From the NCBI RefSeq assembly GCF_015207655.1, contig NZ_JADEWN010000009.1:1-64000 (forward strand): DNA of 64,000 nt. The letters are read 5' to 3'. A model generated the notes under the pieces. It made no database searches, was not told where the DNA came from, and was given only the letters and a program-made list of their open reading frames with translations. Source of the DNA: Gloeocapsopsis crepidinum LEGE 06123. Lineage in GTDB: Bacteria > Cyanobacteriota > Cyanobacteriia > Cyanobacteriales > Chroococcidiopsidaceae. Each line of letters opens with the position of its first letter. Position 1 is the first letter of the stretch. The position numbers and the translations under genes are program-made. This document shows, piece after piece, positions 28,824 to 39,719 of the stretch.

Positions 28824-28884
28824 CTTTTGATGTGACTTGAAGTTACGTTTACACGTTTTAATAGTATTACCAGGAGTCACCGCG

Positions 28885-29958
28885 ATGAAAAAGTTGATTA
28901 ATCGACCGGAAGATTTTGTTCGTGAGAGTTTGATAGGTATGGCAAAGGCTCATCCTGATCTTTTAAAGGTACAATTTGAGCCAACGTTTGTCTACCGTGC
29001 TGTTGCACCTGTACCAGGGAAAGTTGCGATTGTTTCGGGTGGTGGTAGCGGACACGAACCAATGCACGCAGGGTTTGTTGGCTTGGGAATGCTTGATGCA
29101 GCTTGTCCTGGTGAAGTTTTTACTTCTCCAACTCCCGATCAAATGCTAGCAGCAGCAAAACAAGTTGATGGTGGTGGTGGAATTCTTTATATCGTCAAAA
29201 ACTATAGTGGCGATGTGATGAACTTTGAAATGGCAACTGAGTTAGCTCATGCTGAAGATCTGCGAGTATTGAGTATTTTAATTGACGATGATGTTGCTGT
29301 TAAGGATAGTTTGTACACCCAGGGACGGCGAGGTGTAGGAACAACAATATTAGCTGAGAAAATTTGCGGTGCCGCAGCCGAACAAGGATACGATCTACAG
29401 CAAATTGCCGATTTGTGTCGCCGAGTCAATCTTCATGGACGCAGTATGGGAGTTGCCTTAACTTCGTGTACTGTACCAGCAAAAGGAACGCCTACCTTTG
29501 AATTAGGTGCTAACGAAATTGAAATGGGAATCGGAATCCACGGCGAACCAGGCTGCGAAAGAATGTCGATTAAGTCTGCGGATGAGATTACTGAAATACT
29601 CGCAACGTCAATTTTTGAAGATGTAGCTTATAGTCGCACAGTACGAGAGTGGGATGAAAATAAAGGGGGATTTGTTGACGTACAATTAACTGATCCTGAA
29701 TGGGAAAAGGGCGATCGCCTTCTCGCTTTTGTTAATGGTATGGGTGGTACGCCATTGGCTGAATTATATATTATCTATCGCAAACTTGCTGAGCTTTGCG
29801 AGCAGCAAGGATGGCAAATTGTGCGTAACTTAATCGGTTCTCATATCACTTCGCTGGATATGCAAGGTTGTTCAATTACACTGCTGAAGTTAGATGATGA
29901 AATGATTCGACTCTGGGATGCACCCGTGAAAACAGCAAGCTGGCGATGGGGAATTTAA
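28885..29958 (+). CDS. dhaK: Dihydroxyacetone kinase subunit DhaK (substrate-binding)
   Basis: 357 residues from ATG 28885, chosen over an upstream in-frame start because CAGGAG lies 8 bases before it and DhaK proteins start at this [12 protein letters not shown]. The dihydroxyacetone-binding loop [16 protein letters not shown] is present, and GIGIHGEPG contains the histidine that forms the hemiaminal with the substrate. With DhaL it phosphorylates dihydroxyacetone. The DhaM partner at 37.3 kb indicates that phosphate comes from PEP rather than ATP. dhaL starts 2 bases after the stop. Confidence 0.95.
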
Positions 29959-29960
29959 TC

Positions 29961-30608
29961 ATGGTGACAAAAGAGCAAATTCTACAATGGTTGCAGCAAT
30001 TCGCCAGTGCGATCGCCCAAAATAAAGAATACCTAACACAATTAGATGCAGCGATCGGTGATGCTGACCACGGGATCAATATGGATCGTGGTTTTCAAAA
30101 AGTCGCAAATCAGTTATCAAATTTTGCAGCGCAAGATATCAGCAGTATTTTGAAAAGTGTAAGTATGACACTCATCTCTAGTGTCGGTGGTGCTAGTGGT
30201 CCATTGTATGGCAGCTTCTTTTTACGTGCTAGTACCGCAGTTATAGGAAAACAAGAATTGTCTAACGAAGATATGGTGAGTTTACTGCAAGCAGGGTTAG
30301 ATGGTGTCTTGCAACGAGGCAAAGCTCAACTTAGTGATAAAACAATGATTGATGCACTGTCTCCTGCAGTTACAACTTTTACCCAAATTATTAGGGAAGG
30401 AAAAACTACCACAGAAGCTATACAACAAGCTACAGTTGCAGCAGAACAAGGCATGAAAGCAACTATCCCAATGGTGGCAAAAAAAGGGCGGGCTAGCTAC
30501 TTAGGCGATCGCAGTATCAATCGTCAAGATCCTGGCGCAACATCCGTTTATTTGATGATCCAGAGTTTATCTGAAGTACTGGTTGAGTCACTAGTGACTA
30601 GTGATTAG
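29961..30608 (+). CDS. dhaL: Dihydroxyacetone kinase subunit DhaL (ADP-binding)
   Basis: 215 residues from ATG 29961 (MVTKEQILQWL); a second ATG at 29946 overlaps dhaK. The nucleotide and magnesium-binding motif DAAIGDADHGINMDRG is near residue 35, and SSVGGASGPLYGSFF and GRASYLGDRSINRQDPGA are conserved lid/phosphate regions. DhaL of PTS-type enzymes holds ADP permanently as a coenzyme that is re-phosphorylated by DhaM. It follows dhaK directly. Confidence 0.93.
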   Translation: MVTKEQILQWLQQFASAIAQNKEYLTQLDAAIGDADHGINMDRGFQKVANQLSNFAAQDISSILKSVSMTLISSVGGASGPLYGSFFLRASTAVIGKQELSNEDMVSLLQAGLDGVLQRGKAQLSDKTMIDALSPAVTTFTQIIREGKTTTEAIQQATVAAEQGMKATIPMVAKKGRASYLGDRSINRQDPGATSVYLMIQSLSEVLVESLVTSD

Positions 30609-32179: not shown

Positions 32180-32509
32180 TTCAGAGGAATGACAAGGAGA
32201 TGCTTTCGATCTTAATCTGCTTGCTATTAACTTGAATGCGCCAGCAGGAATACAGCAAATGGATGTTCGCAACTCAAATAGAAACGCTACACATTGCGAT
32301 CGCTGTATTTTCAGATTTTAGCAAAACGTAATATTACGTAAAAGTCTTACACAGATATCACTATGAGCTTAATGATTTAGGCTTCCATCTCCTAGATCGT
32401 CGATATCTATTAAGGAGGATTGCGTAGTAGAAAACATTCCGCTATATTACCCATAACTGATGAGTTATTAGCTTGGGAATCAAATATGCAAGTATTACTT
32501 ATCAGCAAC

Positions 32510-32650
32510 TTAGTGGGCAGCCTAATCTTCTTCCGTAAGCGGTTGAAGAACGGAGGAACCAACTTTTGGGGCAAATCTCAGTTGATGAGAGAGACACCTT
32601 CCAGTCTTAGCCCGTCAGCTAACTTCGTAGGCAATGGAAGGAGTACCTTT
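32510..32650 (+). ncRNA. c-di-AMP riboswitch (ydaO/yuaA type)
   Basis: The ydaO-motif landmarks appear in order: TTCTTCCG, then CGGAGGAACCAAC with TTTTGGGGCAAATCT, GATGAGAGAGACACCTTCC, and the highly conserved 3' part AGCCCGTCAGCTAACTTCG with TAGGCAATGGAAGGAG. CTTCC (about 32598) can pair with GGAAG at the 3' end. These match my recollection of the c-di-AMP-binding riboswitch, which usually turns off cell-wall hydrolase, osmolyte or potassium genes when c-di-AMP is high. The next gene is a 67-residue unknown protein 126 bases downstream. No covariance-model score was computed. Confidence 0.85.
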
Positions 32651-32775
32651 GGACGTCAGCTTCAAGCCAAGTATCCTAGGGTTCTCCCAGTAAATATCAC
32701 TGACAATATAGTTGTGTATATTTGCGAACATCTCGACCCACCTCGTCCACCGCTACAAGTAAACAGAGGTAAGGC

Positions 32776-32979
32776 ATGAAAAATTATTACAAACAATGGA
32801 TTCTACTTGCAAAACAAGAGCTGAATGGTATTGTTATAGACTACACCGATCCTGAAGGAAATCATTATAGCGAACCCTTCTGTTTTCAAACTATTGATGA
32901 AGCGATCGCTTACGGTCAAGCCTGTATTGACCGTTTGATTCGGATAAAATCTAAGTCTCCTATCCAAGCAGAGTCGTAA
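32776..32979 (+). CDS. Hypothetical 67-residue protein downstream of riboswitch
   Basis: MKNYYKQWILLAKQELNG opens the protein, followed by an acidic-aromatic middle (YTDPEGNHYSEPFCFQTIDEA) and a helix ending in a basic tail. No signal peptide or membrane helix. No family recognised. AGAGGTAAGGC precedes the ATG. Its place after the c-di-AMP riboswitch suggests osmotic or cell-wall regulation, unless the true target gene was lost and this gene moved in. Confidence 0.6.
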   Translation: MKNYYKQWILLAKQELNGIVIDYTDPEGNHYSEPFCFQTIDEAIAYGQACIDRLIRIKSKSPIQAES

Positions 32980-33210
32980 ATATAAGCTATTGGCTGTTAG
33001 CTATTAGCTTGGTATTCAGAAGAAAGGAGAGGAGAAAGAGTTTATGGTTTGGGAATTAGTAAATAACTATAAATTCCTAAGTTGAAAGCTGGCGCGATCG
33101 CGTCCTCTAACTCCCGATTCTTATGTCTTCAAATTTTTCTACTGTTAGCTAGAGGTCACTAACTTGATGAAATAGGGAAAATTGATGTTGCCCATAACTT
33201 GAGAAAACCC

Positions 33211-33756
33211 ATGAAACTTTTCGATCAAATTCTTGGTGCAATCAATAATCCTTCACAACAAGCAAGTTCTGGACAGCTAGCTAACATTCTAAACACAGTA
33301 CAGCAGCTCAGCAGTAGCTACAATACTAATCCTTCCACAATGCAAACGCTCATGTCTGTAGTAGGCAATTATGTGCGTTCAGGGCTACAGCAAAAGCGTT
33401 CTAGAGAAGGTTACGACCAAACACAAGCATATGTAAATCAATATAGTGGTGCCTCACCAAGTCCGCAAGCAGTTTCTGGGCTCTTTTCTCAGAACCAGGT
33501 TCAACAGCTAGCACAACTTGCCGCGCAACGGACAGGTTTAAATCCAAACATGATTGTGCAGATGTTGCCTATCTTAGTGCCAATTGTGTTGAATTTGTTG
33601 CAAAGTGGCAGCCGCGCGCAAAATGCCTCAAACGATCCTCAAACGAGTCAAAATACTGTACTAGACACTTTTTTGGATGCAAATGGCGATGGTGAAGTAG
33701 ACATTGCTGATGTTATGCAGCTTGCTGGACGCTATCTTGGTCAATCGCGCTTTTAA
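33211..33756 (+). CDS. DUF937-like protein with C-terminal Ca-loop/dockerin-like motif
   Basis: 181 residues from ATG 33211 (MKLFDQILGAINNP). Helical region with Gln/Ser-rich segments; a DUF937/YidB-like core (about 75-135, VSGLFSQNQVQQLAQLAAQ then MIVQMLPILVPIVLNLL) is followed by a linker. A final EF-hand-like loop, FLDANGDGEVDIADVMQLAG, has Asp/Asn at the calcium positions. Probably cytosolic or surface-bound; function unknown. A dispersed repeat starts 15 bases after the stop. Confidence 0.7.
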   Translation: MKLFDQILGAINNPSQQASSGQLANILNTVQQLSSSYNTNPSTMQTLMSVVGNYVRSGLQQKRSREGYDQTQAYVNQYSGASPSPQAVSGLFSQNQVQQLAQLAAQRTGLNPNMIVQMLPILVPIVLNLLQSGSRAQNASNDPQTSQNTVLDTFLDANGDGEVDIADVMQLAGRYLGQSRF

Positions 33757-37253: not shown

Positions 37254-39719
37254 GTGGTAGGAATTGTTCTTGTCTCTCACAGTAAACAGCTAGCAGCAGG
37301 TGTACGAGAACTTGCCGCGCAGATGGTTGGTGATGACGTTTCTTTAGCTGTCGCCGCAGGTATTGACGATCCAGTTAATCCCTTGGGAACAGATACCATG
37401 CAAGTTTATCAGGCAATTGAGTCAGTTTATAGCGCAGATGGTGTCGTTGTTTTGATGGATCTGGGAAGTGCTTTGTTAAGTGCGGAAATGGCGCTAGAGT
37501 TTTTATCTGAGGAACAGCGCGAGAAAATTCATTTATGTGAAGCACCATTTGTTGAAGGTGCGATCGCTGCAACAATTTCAGCTGCATCAGGAAATTCTAT
37601 TGCACAAGTCATTGCAGACGCACAAGGGGCATTAACAGCCAAAGCCACACAACTAGGAATCGCTGTCGTTACTACCCAACAATCACAAGATACCTCCCAT
37701 ACAGCCCAAGTTCAAACAACAGTTTCTAATAGACTAGGATTGCACGCACGTCCCGCAGCAAAGTTTGTGACAACAGCAGCCAAGTTTCAAGCGCAGATTC
37801 AAGTAAGAAATATTACAAGAGATACAAACTTTGTCAGGGCTGATAGTATCAATCAAGTTACTACATTAGGAGTTCGTCAAGGACACAAAATTGCCATTAC
37901 TGCATCTGGAAATGATGCAGAAGCAGCTTTAGCTGCATTGCAAAACTTAGTTGCAAATAACTTTGGTGAAGGCGACAGCGATATAGTACCTGTAGAAATT
38001 GATACGAGTGATTTCGCTGGAGAATTGATTGGAATTCCTGCTTCTTCGGGAGTGGCGATCGCCCCTATATTTCAATATCGTCCGATAACTGTACGAGTAG
38101 AAGAATACATCGTTGAGGATACAGCAATCGAATGGCAACGGTTACAAAGGGCAATTCAAACTGCAACGCAGGATCTTCAAGCTTTGCAAACAACACAACT
38201 TGGCGACGAGGCGGAGATTTTTAGTGCACAATTACTTGTTTTACAAGATCCCGCATTACTTGAACCCGTACACCAACGAATTTTTACCCATCACCAAAAT
38301 GCAGAATTTGCTTGGAAAAGTACAATTGATGAGTTAGCAAACAATTTTTACATTCTAGATGATGCTTATTTGCAAGAACGTGCCAGCGATCTCATTGATG
38401 TTGAACAAAGAGTATTGCGATCGCTGCGTGGAATGACATCATCGACAATCGAACTGACGCAACCTAGTATCGTAGTCACTACCGATTTAACTCCTTCAGA
38501 TACTGCGCAACTAGACACAACAAAAGTACTAGGTATCTGTACAACCCGTGGTAGTGCAACTTCACACACGGCAATCTTGGCACGTACGCTTAATATTCCA
38601 GCAGTCGTTGGTGTTCCTGCCACAATTTTAAATCTGACAAACGATACACTTTTGGCAATTGATGGGACAAGTGGTAAAGTTTGGCTAGAACCGGATACAA
38701 AAACCATAACAACGCTACAAGCTAAGCGTCATGTGATATTGCAACAACAAGCGCCAATGATTGCACATCAACCTGCAATGACTCGTGATGGAAAGTGCAT
38801 TAGTATCATGGCTAATATTGGTAGTGTTGCTGATGCGAAAACAGCAATCAAAAATGGTGCTGATGGCGTCGGATTACTCCGTACCGAGTTTCTTTATCTC
38901 AATCGCACGACTGCGCCTACTGAAGAGGAACAATTTACAGTTTATCAAGCGATCGCCCAAGTTTTAGAGCGCCGCCCTTTCATCATTCGCACTTTAGACG
39001 TTGGCGGTGACAAACCACTACCTTATGTGAAATTGCAACCAGAATCTAATCCTTTTTTAGGCAAACGCGGTATTCGTTTTTGTTTAGACAATCAAGATAT
39101 TTTTAAAACGCAGTTACGCGCAATTCTTCGCGCCAGCCACAAACATCAAATTAAACTTATGTTTCCCATGATTGCAACTGTGCAAGAAGTGCAAGCTGCG
39201 AAGGCAATTTTTATGGAAGTCCAAACAGAAATGCAACAAGCAAATATTCCTTTTGATGCAACAATGCAAGTAGGAATTATGGTGGAGATTCCGTCGGCAG
39301 TTGCGATCGCCGATCAATTAGCAACCGAGGTAGATTTTTTTAGTATCGGTACGAATGACTTAAGTCAGTATGTTATGGCAGCAGATCGCACTAATCCTGA
39401 TGTCGCCATGCTTGCGGATGCTTTACATCCCTCAGTGTTACGCACAATTGCGCAAACTGTAAAAGCTGCACATCAAGCAGGAATTTGGGTAGGTTTGTGT
39501 GGAGAATTAGCAGCCGATTCTATTGCTACGCCAATCTTAGTAGGGCTAGGACTAGATGAACTCAGCCTTAATTCGCAAGCGATACCAATAATTAAACACA
39601 CTATTACTAAGTTAAAAAGATCTGAATCTGAAGCGATCGCGCAAACAGCTTTAACTCTAAATTCGCCACAGGGTGTTAGAACATTAGTTGCAACTACAAT
39701 GAACCATGAAGTCAGATGA
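37254..39719 (+). CDS. dhaM: DhaM-HPr-Enzyme I fusion (PTS phosphoryl donor for dihydroxyacetone kinase)
   Basis: 821 residues. DhaM (mannose-EIIA-like) domain, residues 1-130, has His9 in VLVSHS. The HPr domain (about 155-240) has His164 in NRLGLHARPAAKF. Enzyme I (about 255-815) has His438 in GSATSHTAILARTLNIPAVV, the PEP-site parts LLRTEFLYL, DVGGDKPLPY, MVEIPSA and GTNDLSQYVMAADR, and the Cys in GLCGELAAD. Phosphate thus flows from PEP through all three modules to ADP on DhaL. The start is GTG 37254: an in-frame TAA at 37224 excludes longer forms, and no strong ribosome site is visible. dhaK-dhaL lie 7 kb upstream. Confidence 0.92.
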   Translation: MVGIVLVSHSKQLAAGVRELAAQMVGDDVSLAVAAGIDDPVNPLGTDTMQVYQAIESVYSADGVVVLMDLGSALLSAEMALEFLSEEQREKIHLCEAPFVEGAIAATISAASGNSIAQVIADAQGALTAKATQLGIAVVTTQQSQDTSHTAQVQTTVSNRLGLHARPAAKFVTTAAKFQAQIQVRNITRDTNFVRADSINQVTTLGVRQGHKIAITASGNDAEAALAALQNLVANNFGEGDSDIVPVEIDTSDFAGELIGIPASSGVAIAPIFQYRPITVRVEEYIVEDTAIEWQRLQRAIQTATQDLQALQTTQLGDEAEIFSAQLLVLQDPALLEPVHQRIFTHHQNAEFAWKSTIDELANNFYILDDAYLQERASDLIDVEQRVLRSLRGMTSSTIELTQPSIVVTTDLTPSDTAQLDTTKVLGICTTRGSATSHTAILARTLNIPAVVGVPATILNLTNDTLLAIDGTSGKVWLEPDTKTITTLQAKRHVILQQQAPMIAHQPAMTRDGKCISIMANIGSVADAKTAIKNGADGVGLLRTEFLYLNRTTAPTEEEQFTVYQAIAQVLERRPFIIRTLDVGGDKPLPYVKLQPESNPFLGKRGIRFCLDNQDIFKTQLRAILRASHKHQIKLMFPMIATVQEVQAAKAIFMEVQTEMQQANIPFDATMQVGIMVEIPSAVAIADQLATEVDFFSIGTNDLSQYVMAADRTNPDVAMLADALHPSVLRTIAQTVKAAHQAGIWVGLCGELAADSIATPILVGLGLDELSLNSQAIPIIKHTITKLKRSESEAIAQTALTLNSPQGVRTLVATTMNHEVR

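Follow-up and report, generated by a model that had tools for sequence, protein, structure and literature searches.

What does a c-di-AMP riboswitch control when the first gene behind it encodes an uncharacterised protein of only 67 residues? The question is raised by a locus in a 64,000-nucleotide stretch of the genome of Gloeocapsopsis crepidinum LEGE 06123 (contig NZ_JADEWN010000009.1, positions 1 to 64,000; hereafter the window). The original prediction for this locus, made from the letters alone, had proposed a well-preserved aptamer ahead of the small gene, and had suggested that the gene either belongs to the osmotic/cell-wall regulon or took its place after the usual target had been deleted. 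The locus consists of two features:

32509..32648, + strand: c-di-AMP riboswitch aptamer (RF00379; 76.7 bits against a gathering score of 38, E 4.8e-16)
32776..32979, + strand: gene for the 67-residue protein, the likely target of the switch (open reading frame, dN/dS, linkage, AlphaFold model)

By its sequence, this is an unexceptional aptamer of RF00379, the c-di-AMP (ydaO/yuaA leader) family, and is predicted to bind c-di-AMP. The match found by cmscan is not cut off but spans the full model (1–134), and the core AGCCCGTCAGCTAACTTCG lies at 32609–32627 of the window. A covariance-model search with the ydaO-yuaA family had been named in advance as the check on the riboswitch call; with a full-length score above the curated threshold that call is confirmed, and the start of the feature had been placed correctly to within one base. 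The whole genome holds three RF00379 matches (85.3, 76.7 and 59.1 bits) and one diadenylate cyclase domain (PF02457, 136.2 bits), and at the level of gene presence c-di-AMP appears to be made in the organism. The aptamer ends 127 nt ahead of the ATG of the small gene on the same strand, which is the position of a 5′ leader. An overlapping frame of 119 residues (32420–32779) that runs through the aptamer is taken as a product of chance, because its counterparts in three loci vary in length (98, 74 and 76 residues in L052, L053 and L054) and in L053 and L054 stop short of the small gene.

The small open reading frame, the next sizeable one on the same strand after the aptamer, is a real gene under strong purifying selection, to judge from its pattern of codon change. 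Five other genomes of the same family carry orthologues with 88–97% identity, which places the protein in 6 of the 19 family genomes searched. Among the non-identical family members, dN/dS over 52 codons lies between 0.013 and 0.047, with synonymous change of up to 0.73 (close to saturation in some pairs); against the copies from Coleofasciculus sp. S288 (L086) and Symplocastrum torsivum (L087) it is 0.07–0.11, a rough value because synonymous sites are saturated. That the protein is uncharacterised was borne out, as no family in either Pfam or NCBIfam matches it at E values up to 1. An AlphaFold2 model built from five sequences has four strands and one helix (mean pLDDT 85.8, pTM 0.72), and a Foldseek search with this model returned no match at E ≤ 0.001. 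In a VIA comparison the top row was 6d7k_D (Z 8.2, rmsd 2.3 over 61 residues), an inhibitory subunit of methane monooxygenase; the tool warns that the arrangement may be a common one, and we do not count this hit as a confident relative. A check for a dsRBD-like fold gave Z 5.3 (2l2n; rmsd 2.4 over 56 residues). Searches with sequences of the small-protein family found only unknown families in PHROGs (best E 0.00048, from L086), nothing below E 0.63 in the PDB, and no relatives in the viral contigs and plasmids searched. Weak and partial phage matches (E 0.08–0.09) inside lysin genes of Arthrobacter phages were taken as chance.

The pairing of switch and small gene is more than chance, and it is not local. 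A profile of the small-protein family, searched against 388 genomes of the order with up to 15 candidates per genome scored, picked out homologues at 13 places in 11 genomes, and at 12 of these places a switch lies directly upstream of the gene (six in the own family together with L194, L195, L196, L197, L198 and L200, where L194 and L086, on contigs of equal length, are counted as one locus). The sole unlinked place, L199, belongs to genome G441, where another copy does stand behind a switch. Of the linked copies, two seem degenerate: L200 contains an internal stop, and L198 is strongly diverged. The gene is also linked to a switch in S. torsivum, which came from a separate collection, so that the same leader arrangement recurs at 12 loci beyond the window and is common to genera g1 and g133 of the own family, to family f10 and to one genome of family f5. 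By chance, a same-strand switch within 250 nt upstream would be expected at about 1e-4 per locus, assuming four switches in 5 Mb.

A search of 388 genomes that belong to the class but not to the order yielded 22 further homologue places in seven genomes. No switch was found in the sequence flanking any of them, which for most covered 1.5 kb to either side and was shorter near contig ends; the small protein therefore does not need the switch. Six genomes of family f24, none of them among the genomes with an RF00379 match in the class-wide scan, account for 21 of these places, and the seventh genome (G263) has two switches elsewhere. The expectation that homologues would follow the same switch elsewhere thus held at all places but one within the order, and in S. 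torsivum, and failed outside the order. Of the two outcomes named beforehand as refuting the prediction, a covariance score below threshold and homologues that are never linked to the switch, neither came about. The switch itself is far more widespread, being present in 156 of 291 genomes of the class (up to 11 candidates per genome scored) against 11 of 388 genomes of the order for the small protein. The counts leave out two weak matches inside frames of about 700 codons (L005 in the own genome and L057 in G293) and one match with an internal stop and no switch nearby (L012 in G061, E 0.007). The genes beside unlinked copies gave no functional lead: MiaE at L088, and GUN4 and YflT at L199.

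A survey of 150 cyanobacterial switches shows what else lies behind such aptamers. The set is neither a random sample nor the total of all matches: it comprises loci from the own genome and from searches, 80 more picked from search lists, and linked loci. Downstream genes were grouped by automatic BLAST clustering and labelled by us, and 6 of 145 switches without GTCAGC in the matched stretch were kept in this clustering. The commonest are genes for an ABC permease ('nrtB', 49), universal stress proteins (Usp, 36), slr0753-like proteins (31) and the small protein (13), followed by Na+/H+ exchangers (3), sucrose-type glycosyltransferases (3), YlmH-like S4 proteins (3), an unknown small family (3), M23 peptidases (2), cation ATPases (2) and others (5). 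The names 'nrtB', 'slr0753' and 'sucrose-type' are ones that we presume to fit. For seven of the kinds a single example was tested, and each is supported by Pfam (BPD_transp_1, Usp, Glycos_transf_1, Na_H_Exchanger, Peptidase_M23, E1-E2_ATPase and S4).

When the 150 aptamers were placed in a tree, all 13 switches ahead of the small gene fell within a group of 30 with a support of 0.95; with other trimming the same 30 members came together at a support of 0.0. The group is made up of these 13, 16 switches ahead of usp genes, and L116. Within it the small-protein switches do not form one clade, the largest pure clade holding 7 of the 13. The usp label of the group comes from BLAST clustering, and the only Usp confirmed by PF00582 (30.8 bits), behind the switch L003 on another contig of the own genome, lies outside the group. 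At L116 (1306–1650, − strand, in genome G298 of the own family), a leader of the same class precedes a gene for a 2Fe-2S ferredoxin (Fer2, 64.2 bits), the first codons of which resemble those of the small gene.

Several loci of the survey hold arrangements that deserve mention in their own right. About 290 bases past the small gene of S. torsivum lies a second c-di-AMP switch, followed by two small genes (L087:3501-4497) for proteins of 104 residues each, one with no Pfam match and the other with a sub-threshold match only. Another family of short proteins (about 70–100 residues) stands behind switches in three genomes, at L059, L075 and L083; the L083 member, the one tested, has no Pfam match. 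In three genomes, genes of one similarity cluster, represented at L178 by a YlmH-like S4 RNA-binding protein, are found 270–370 bases downstream of the switches at L178, L144 and L151. In the own genome, the gene about 390 bases behind the switch at L001 is one that we take to encode an slr0753-like permease. Between it and this switch, the strongest of the genome, a 53-codon frame (L001:1749-1910, contig C102) resembles the start of a switch-linked ABC-permease gene and looks like a remnant.

How the switch might act on the small gene is suggested by the leader between them, in which four elements stand out:

32513..32517, + strand: GUGGG, 5′ strand of a possible long-range helix (P0), just before the closing helix P1 (read from the sequence, motif count)
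32640..32687, + strand: stem A, GGAG (32640–32643) with CUCC (32684–32687), and inner helices (RNAalifold, alignment)
32737..32744, + strand: CCCACCUC element with CCCAC (32737–32741, 3′ strand of P0) and ACCUC (32740–32744, anti-Shine-Dalgarno) (alignment)
32766..32770, + strand: GAGGU, Shine-Dalgarno (SD) of the small gene, which can pair with ACCUC (helix 4, RNAalifold)

The SD ends five bases before the ATG, the 5′ strand of stem A lies inside the 3′ tail of the aptamer model, and CCCAC and ACCUC overlap by two bases in the CCCACCUC element, which is conserved in leader alignments. In an alignment of 14 leaders (13 ahead of the small gene and one ahead of the ferredoxin gene), 93.2% of cells in the drawn structure are paired. 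The stem A helices reach 94.9, 87.5 and 96.4%, with a compensatory cell in one pair, and the ribosome-binding-site (RBS) helix ACCUC:GAGGU reaches 92.9%, with one compensatory cell (A-U to G-C). Covariation is thin, at two compensatory cells over 20 pairs, and its score was matched in 1 of 500 shuffles, a control that ignores kinship for a structure drawn from the same sequences. Unaided, RNAalifold recovers most of stem A and the CCUC:GAGG hairpin at the RBS from the 14 leaders. The elements of this hairpin extend to the usp leaders of the aptamer group, 14 of 16 having CCACCUC and then GAGAGG near the start codon, with a one-base variant in L175 and neither motif in L185. The alternative helix GGGUC:GACCC did no better than shuffles, and the folding energy of the leader is unremarkable (z −0.99 and −0.41).

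P0 was spotted by inspection before it was counted. The motif GUGGG(U/C) stands upstream of the core in 29 of the 30 members of the aptamer group against 19 of the 120 other switches, and together with a downstream CCCAC in 27 of 30 against 2 of 120; this count covers all 150 switches, 38 of which come from loci that hold fewer than 150 bases upstream of the core. Both motifs are present in 12 of 13 small-protein switches, in 14 of 16 usp switches and in L116, unlike the switches that we label slr0753 by assumption, where the pair occurs in 1 of 31. The most divergent leader (L087) lacks the exact motif; by eye, its aligned strands show one G-C pair changed to A-U, two G-U pairs and one broken pair. 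Shared ancestry of the group could by itself have retained both strands. The motif count replaces a first one based on a perfect complement of at least five bases to the six bases before P1, which had given 25 of 30 in the group (6.7 expected, with L181 matching by unrelated sequence) and 21 of 67 elsewhere (17.0 expected); there, 53 of the 150 switches could not be scored and four rows of the group (L050, L160, L181 and L198) looked mis-picked. In the 18 of the 30 leaders of the group that were computed, the SD was more open with P0 forced than with P0 barred in 16 and less open in 2, and even with P0 forced it was about 0.2–0.5 open and never fully so. In the predicted ensemble of the full window leader, G32768 and G32769 of the SD are 98% paired, mainly with an ACC further downstream and not with ACCUC.

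The conserved RBS hairpin, together with a second possible helix that shares two bases with it, suggests translational control. From this hairpin, the pairing of the P0 motifs and the openness of the SD with P0, we infer a translational switch in which P0 acts as the releasing helix. Binding of c-di-AMP would shift the balance between the masking hairpin and P0 (GUGGG:CCCAC): with P0 formed the ribosome-binding site would be more open, and with P0 absent it would be masked. If P0 stacks on a P1 stabilised by the ligand, the result would be an on switch, while excerpts from work on Bacillus thuringiensis describe an off switch as precedent (PMC6488665); c-di-AMP may turn the gene either on or off. 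The computations bear out the aptamer, the selection on the small gene, the recurrence of the pair in differing neighbourhoods and the conserved potential for a GAGGU:ACCUC hairpin. We favour, with a probability of roughly 0.7, a model in which a c-di-AMP riboswitch of the ydaO/yuaA type regulates one gene, for a conserved cyanobacterial protein of 67 residues, and does so most likely at the level of translation.

A different mode of action, in which the switch works by transcription termination as in Bacillus and the RBS hairpin is incidental or a second layer, seems unlikely to us, although stem A does sit directly behind the aptamer. Cyanobacterial terminators can lack a U-run, and the failure to find a stem followed by a T run in 32200–33250 is a weak test, with 0.7 such sites expected by chance. 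The elements of the RBS hairpin, however, are kept in the small-protein leaders and in most usp leaders of the group (15 of 16 with the L175 variant), which speaks against this mode. As far as excerpts from the two papers go, termination has its precedents in the kdp switch of B. thuringiensis, where the ligand promotes it (PMC6488665), and in the TaRTLEt analysis, which reports it at loci of five families including ydaO-yuaA (PMC12121620).

The second reading offered at the outset, that this lineage lost the usual target by deletion and that the small gene merely landed behind an orphan switch, we consider very unlikely. The grouping of the aptamer with usp switches speaks for some loss of an earlier target, and targets do change behind this leader, as the ferredoxin gene in place of the small gene at L116 indicates. 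Against a deletion in this lineage stand the spread of the linkage over the genera and families named above, the conservation of the leader up to and including the start region, and the strong selection on the small gene; the suggestion is thus less supported. Since the aptamers nest among switches found mostly ahead of usp genes, a long-past exchange of the target accounts for the data better than its recent loss. On the premise that the usp arrangement came first, at least two changes of target would have taken place behind this leader.

The neighbourhood of the pair is conserved in the own family, with a divergent GTPase gene upstream and a DUF937-like gene (33199–33756, below the Pfam cut-off) downstream. 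That the real target is a longer operon including this DUF937-like gene, with the small frame as a leader gene, is most improbable: in each of the six own-family genomes with the small gene it does follow on that strand, but in the window it begins after a gap of 219 bases, and in Coleofasciculus sp. S288 and S. torsivum other genes follow and yet switch and small gene are not parted. Because the pair persists at these two loci despite different neighbours, the small gene is what the switch is likely to control. The C-terminal part of the DUF937-like protein resembles a dockerin calcium loop weakly and below threshold. Elsewhere in the window, 28837–30608 and 37254–39719 look like genes for what we take to be dihydroxyacetone kinase subunits and a phosphotransfer fusion protein, together a dihydroxyacetone kinase of the PTS type.

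Beyond the reading that we favour there is a wider proposal, which we hold tentatively, at a little under even odds: that these leaders form a distinct cyanobacterial class that acts on translation through pairing of CCCACCUC with the strand before the aptamer or with the RBS, that the class is portable and has had its target swapped (usp in many lineages, the small protein here, ferredoxin in one relative), and that the 67-residue protein acts in stress as a new effector under c-di-AMP control. Within RF00379, the window switch is set apart not by its aptamer, a full-length match above the curated cut-off with a conserved core, but by a first downstream gene whose product has no Pfam or NCBIfam family and by a leader with RBS-hairpin elements and no terminator-like site found in 32200–33250. 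From the usp switches, with which it shares an aptamer group and, in 14 of 16, the P0 motifs, it differs in target, which there is a Usp-type protein. Nelson et al. 2013, the paper likeliest to list cyanobacterial c-di-AMP switch targets, lay outside our literature search, and the excerpts that the search covered do not pair this switch with this protein. As far as the searches reach, the target and the class of expression platform are new and the aptamer itself is ordinary. Excerpts from two studies offer the nearest parallels: the slr0753 switch of Synechocystis is likewise a cyanobacterial c-di-AMP switch, with another target, a putative chloride efflux protein (PMC10117731), and the nlpC switch of Corynebacterium glutamicum is likewise suggested to act on translation, in an actinobacterium and on a cell-wall peptidase (PMC9960051).

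As to function, the small gene may plausibly belong to the osmotic/cell-wall regulon, given that the other targets of the switch include transporters, a Na+/H+ exchanger, a sucrose-type glycosyltransferase, an M23 peptidase and Usp. In the excerpts consulted, c-di-AMP switches of cyanobacteria are said to concern osmoprotectants as well as a putative chloride transporter, and c-di-AMP switches at large a range of transporters, statements that the surveyed targets fit (PMC5986932, PMC10117731, PMC3766115). According to similar excerpts, cyanobacterial c-di-AMP is linked to salt stress and night survival (PMC5986932, PMC5897029), and few of its effectors are known in these organisms (PMC10117731). 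The 67-residue protein probably serves a salt or osmotic response tied to c-di-AMP in cyanobacteria and is perhaps, as a guess from its regulation and size, a small binding or adaptor protein.

In summary, the protein is probably a genuine, little-known part of the c-di-AMP stress-signalling network. A conserved switch with a dedicated small gene offers a direct handle on a new c-di-AMP effector, and the leader elements shared across the aptamer group provide a testable model both of how such a switch may work and of how its target may change in evolution.
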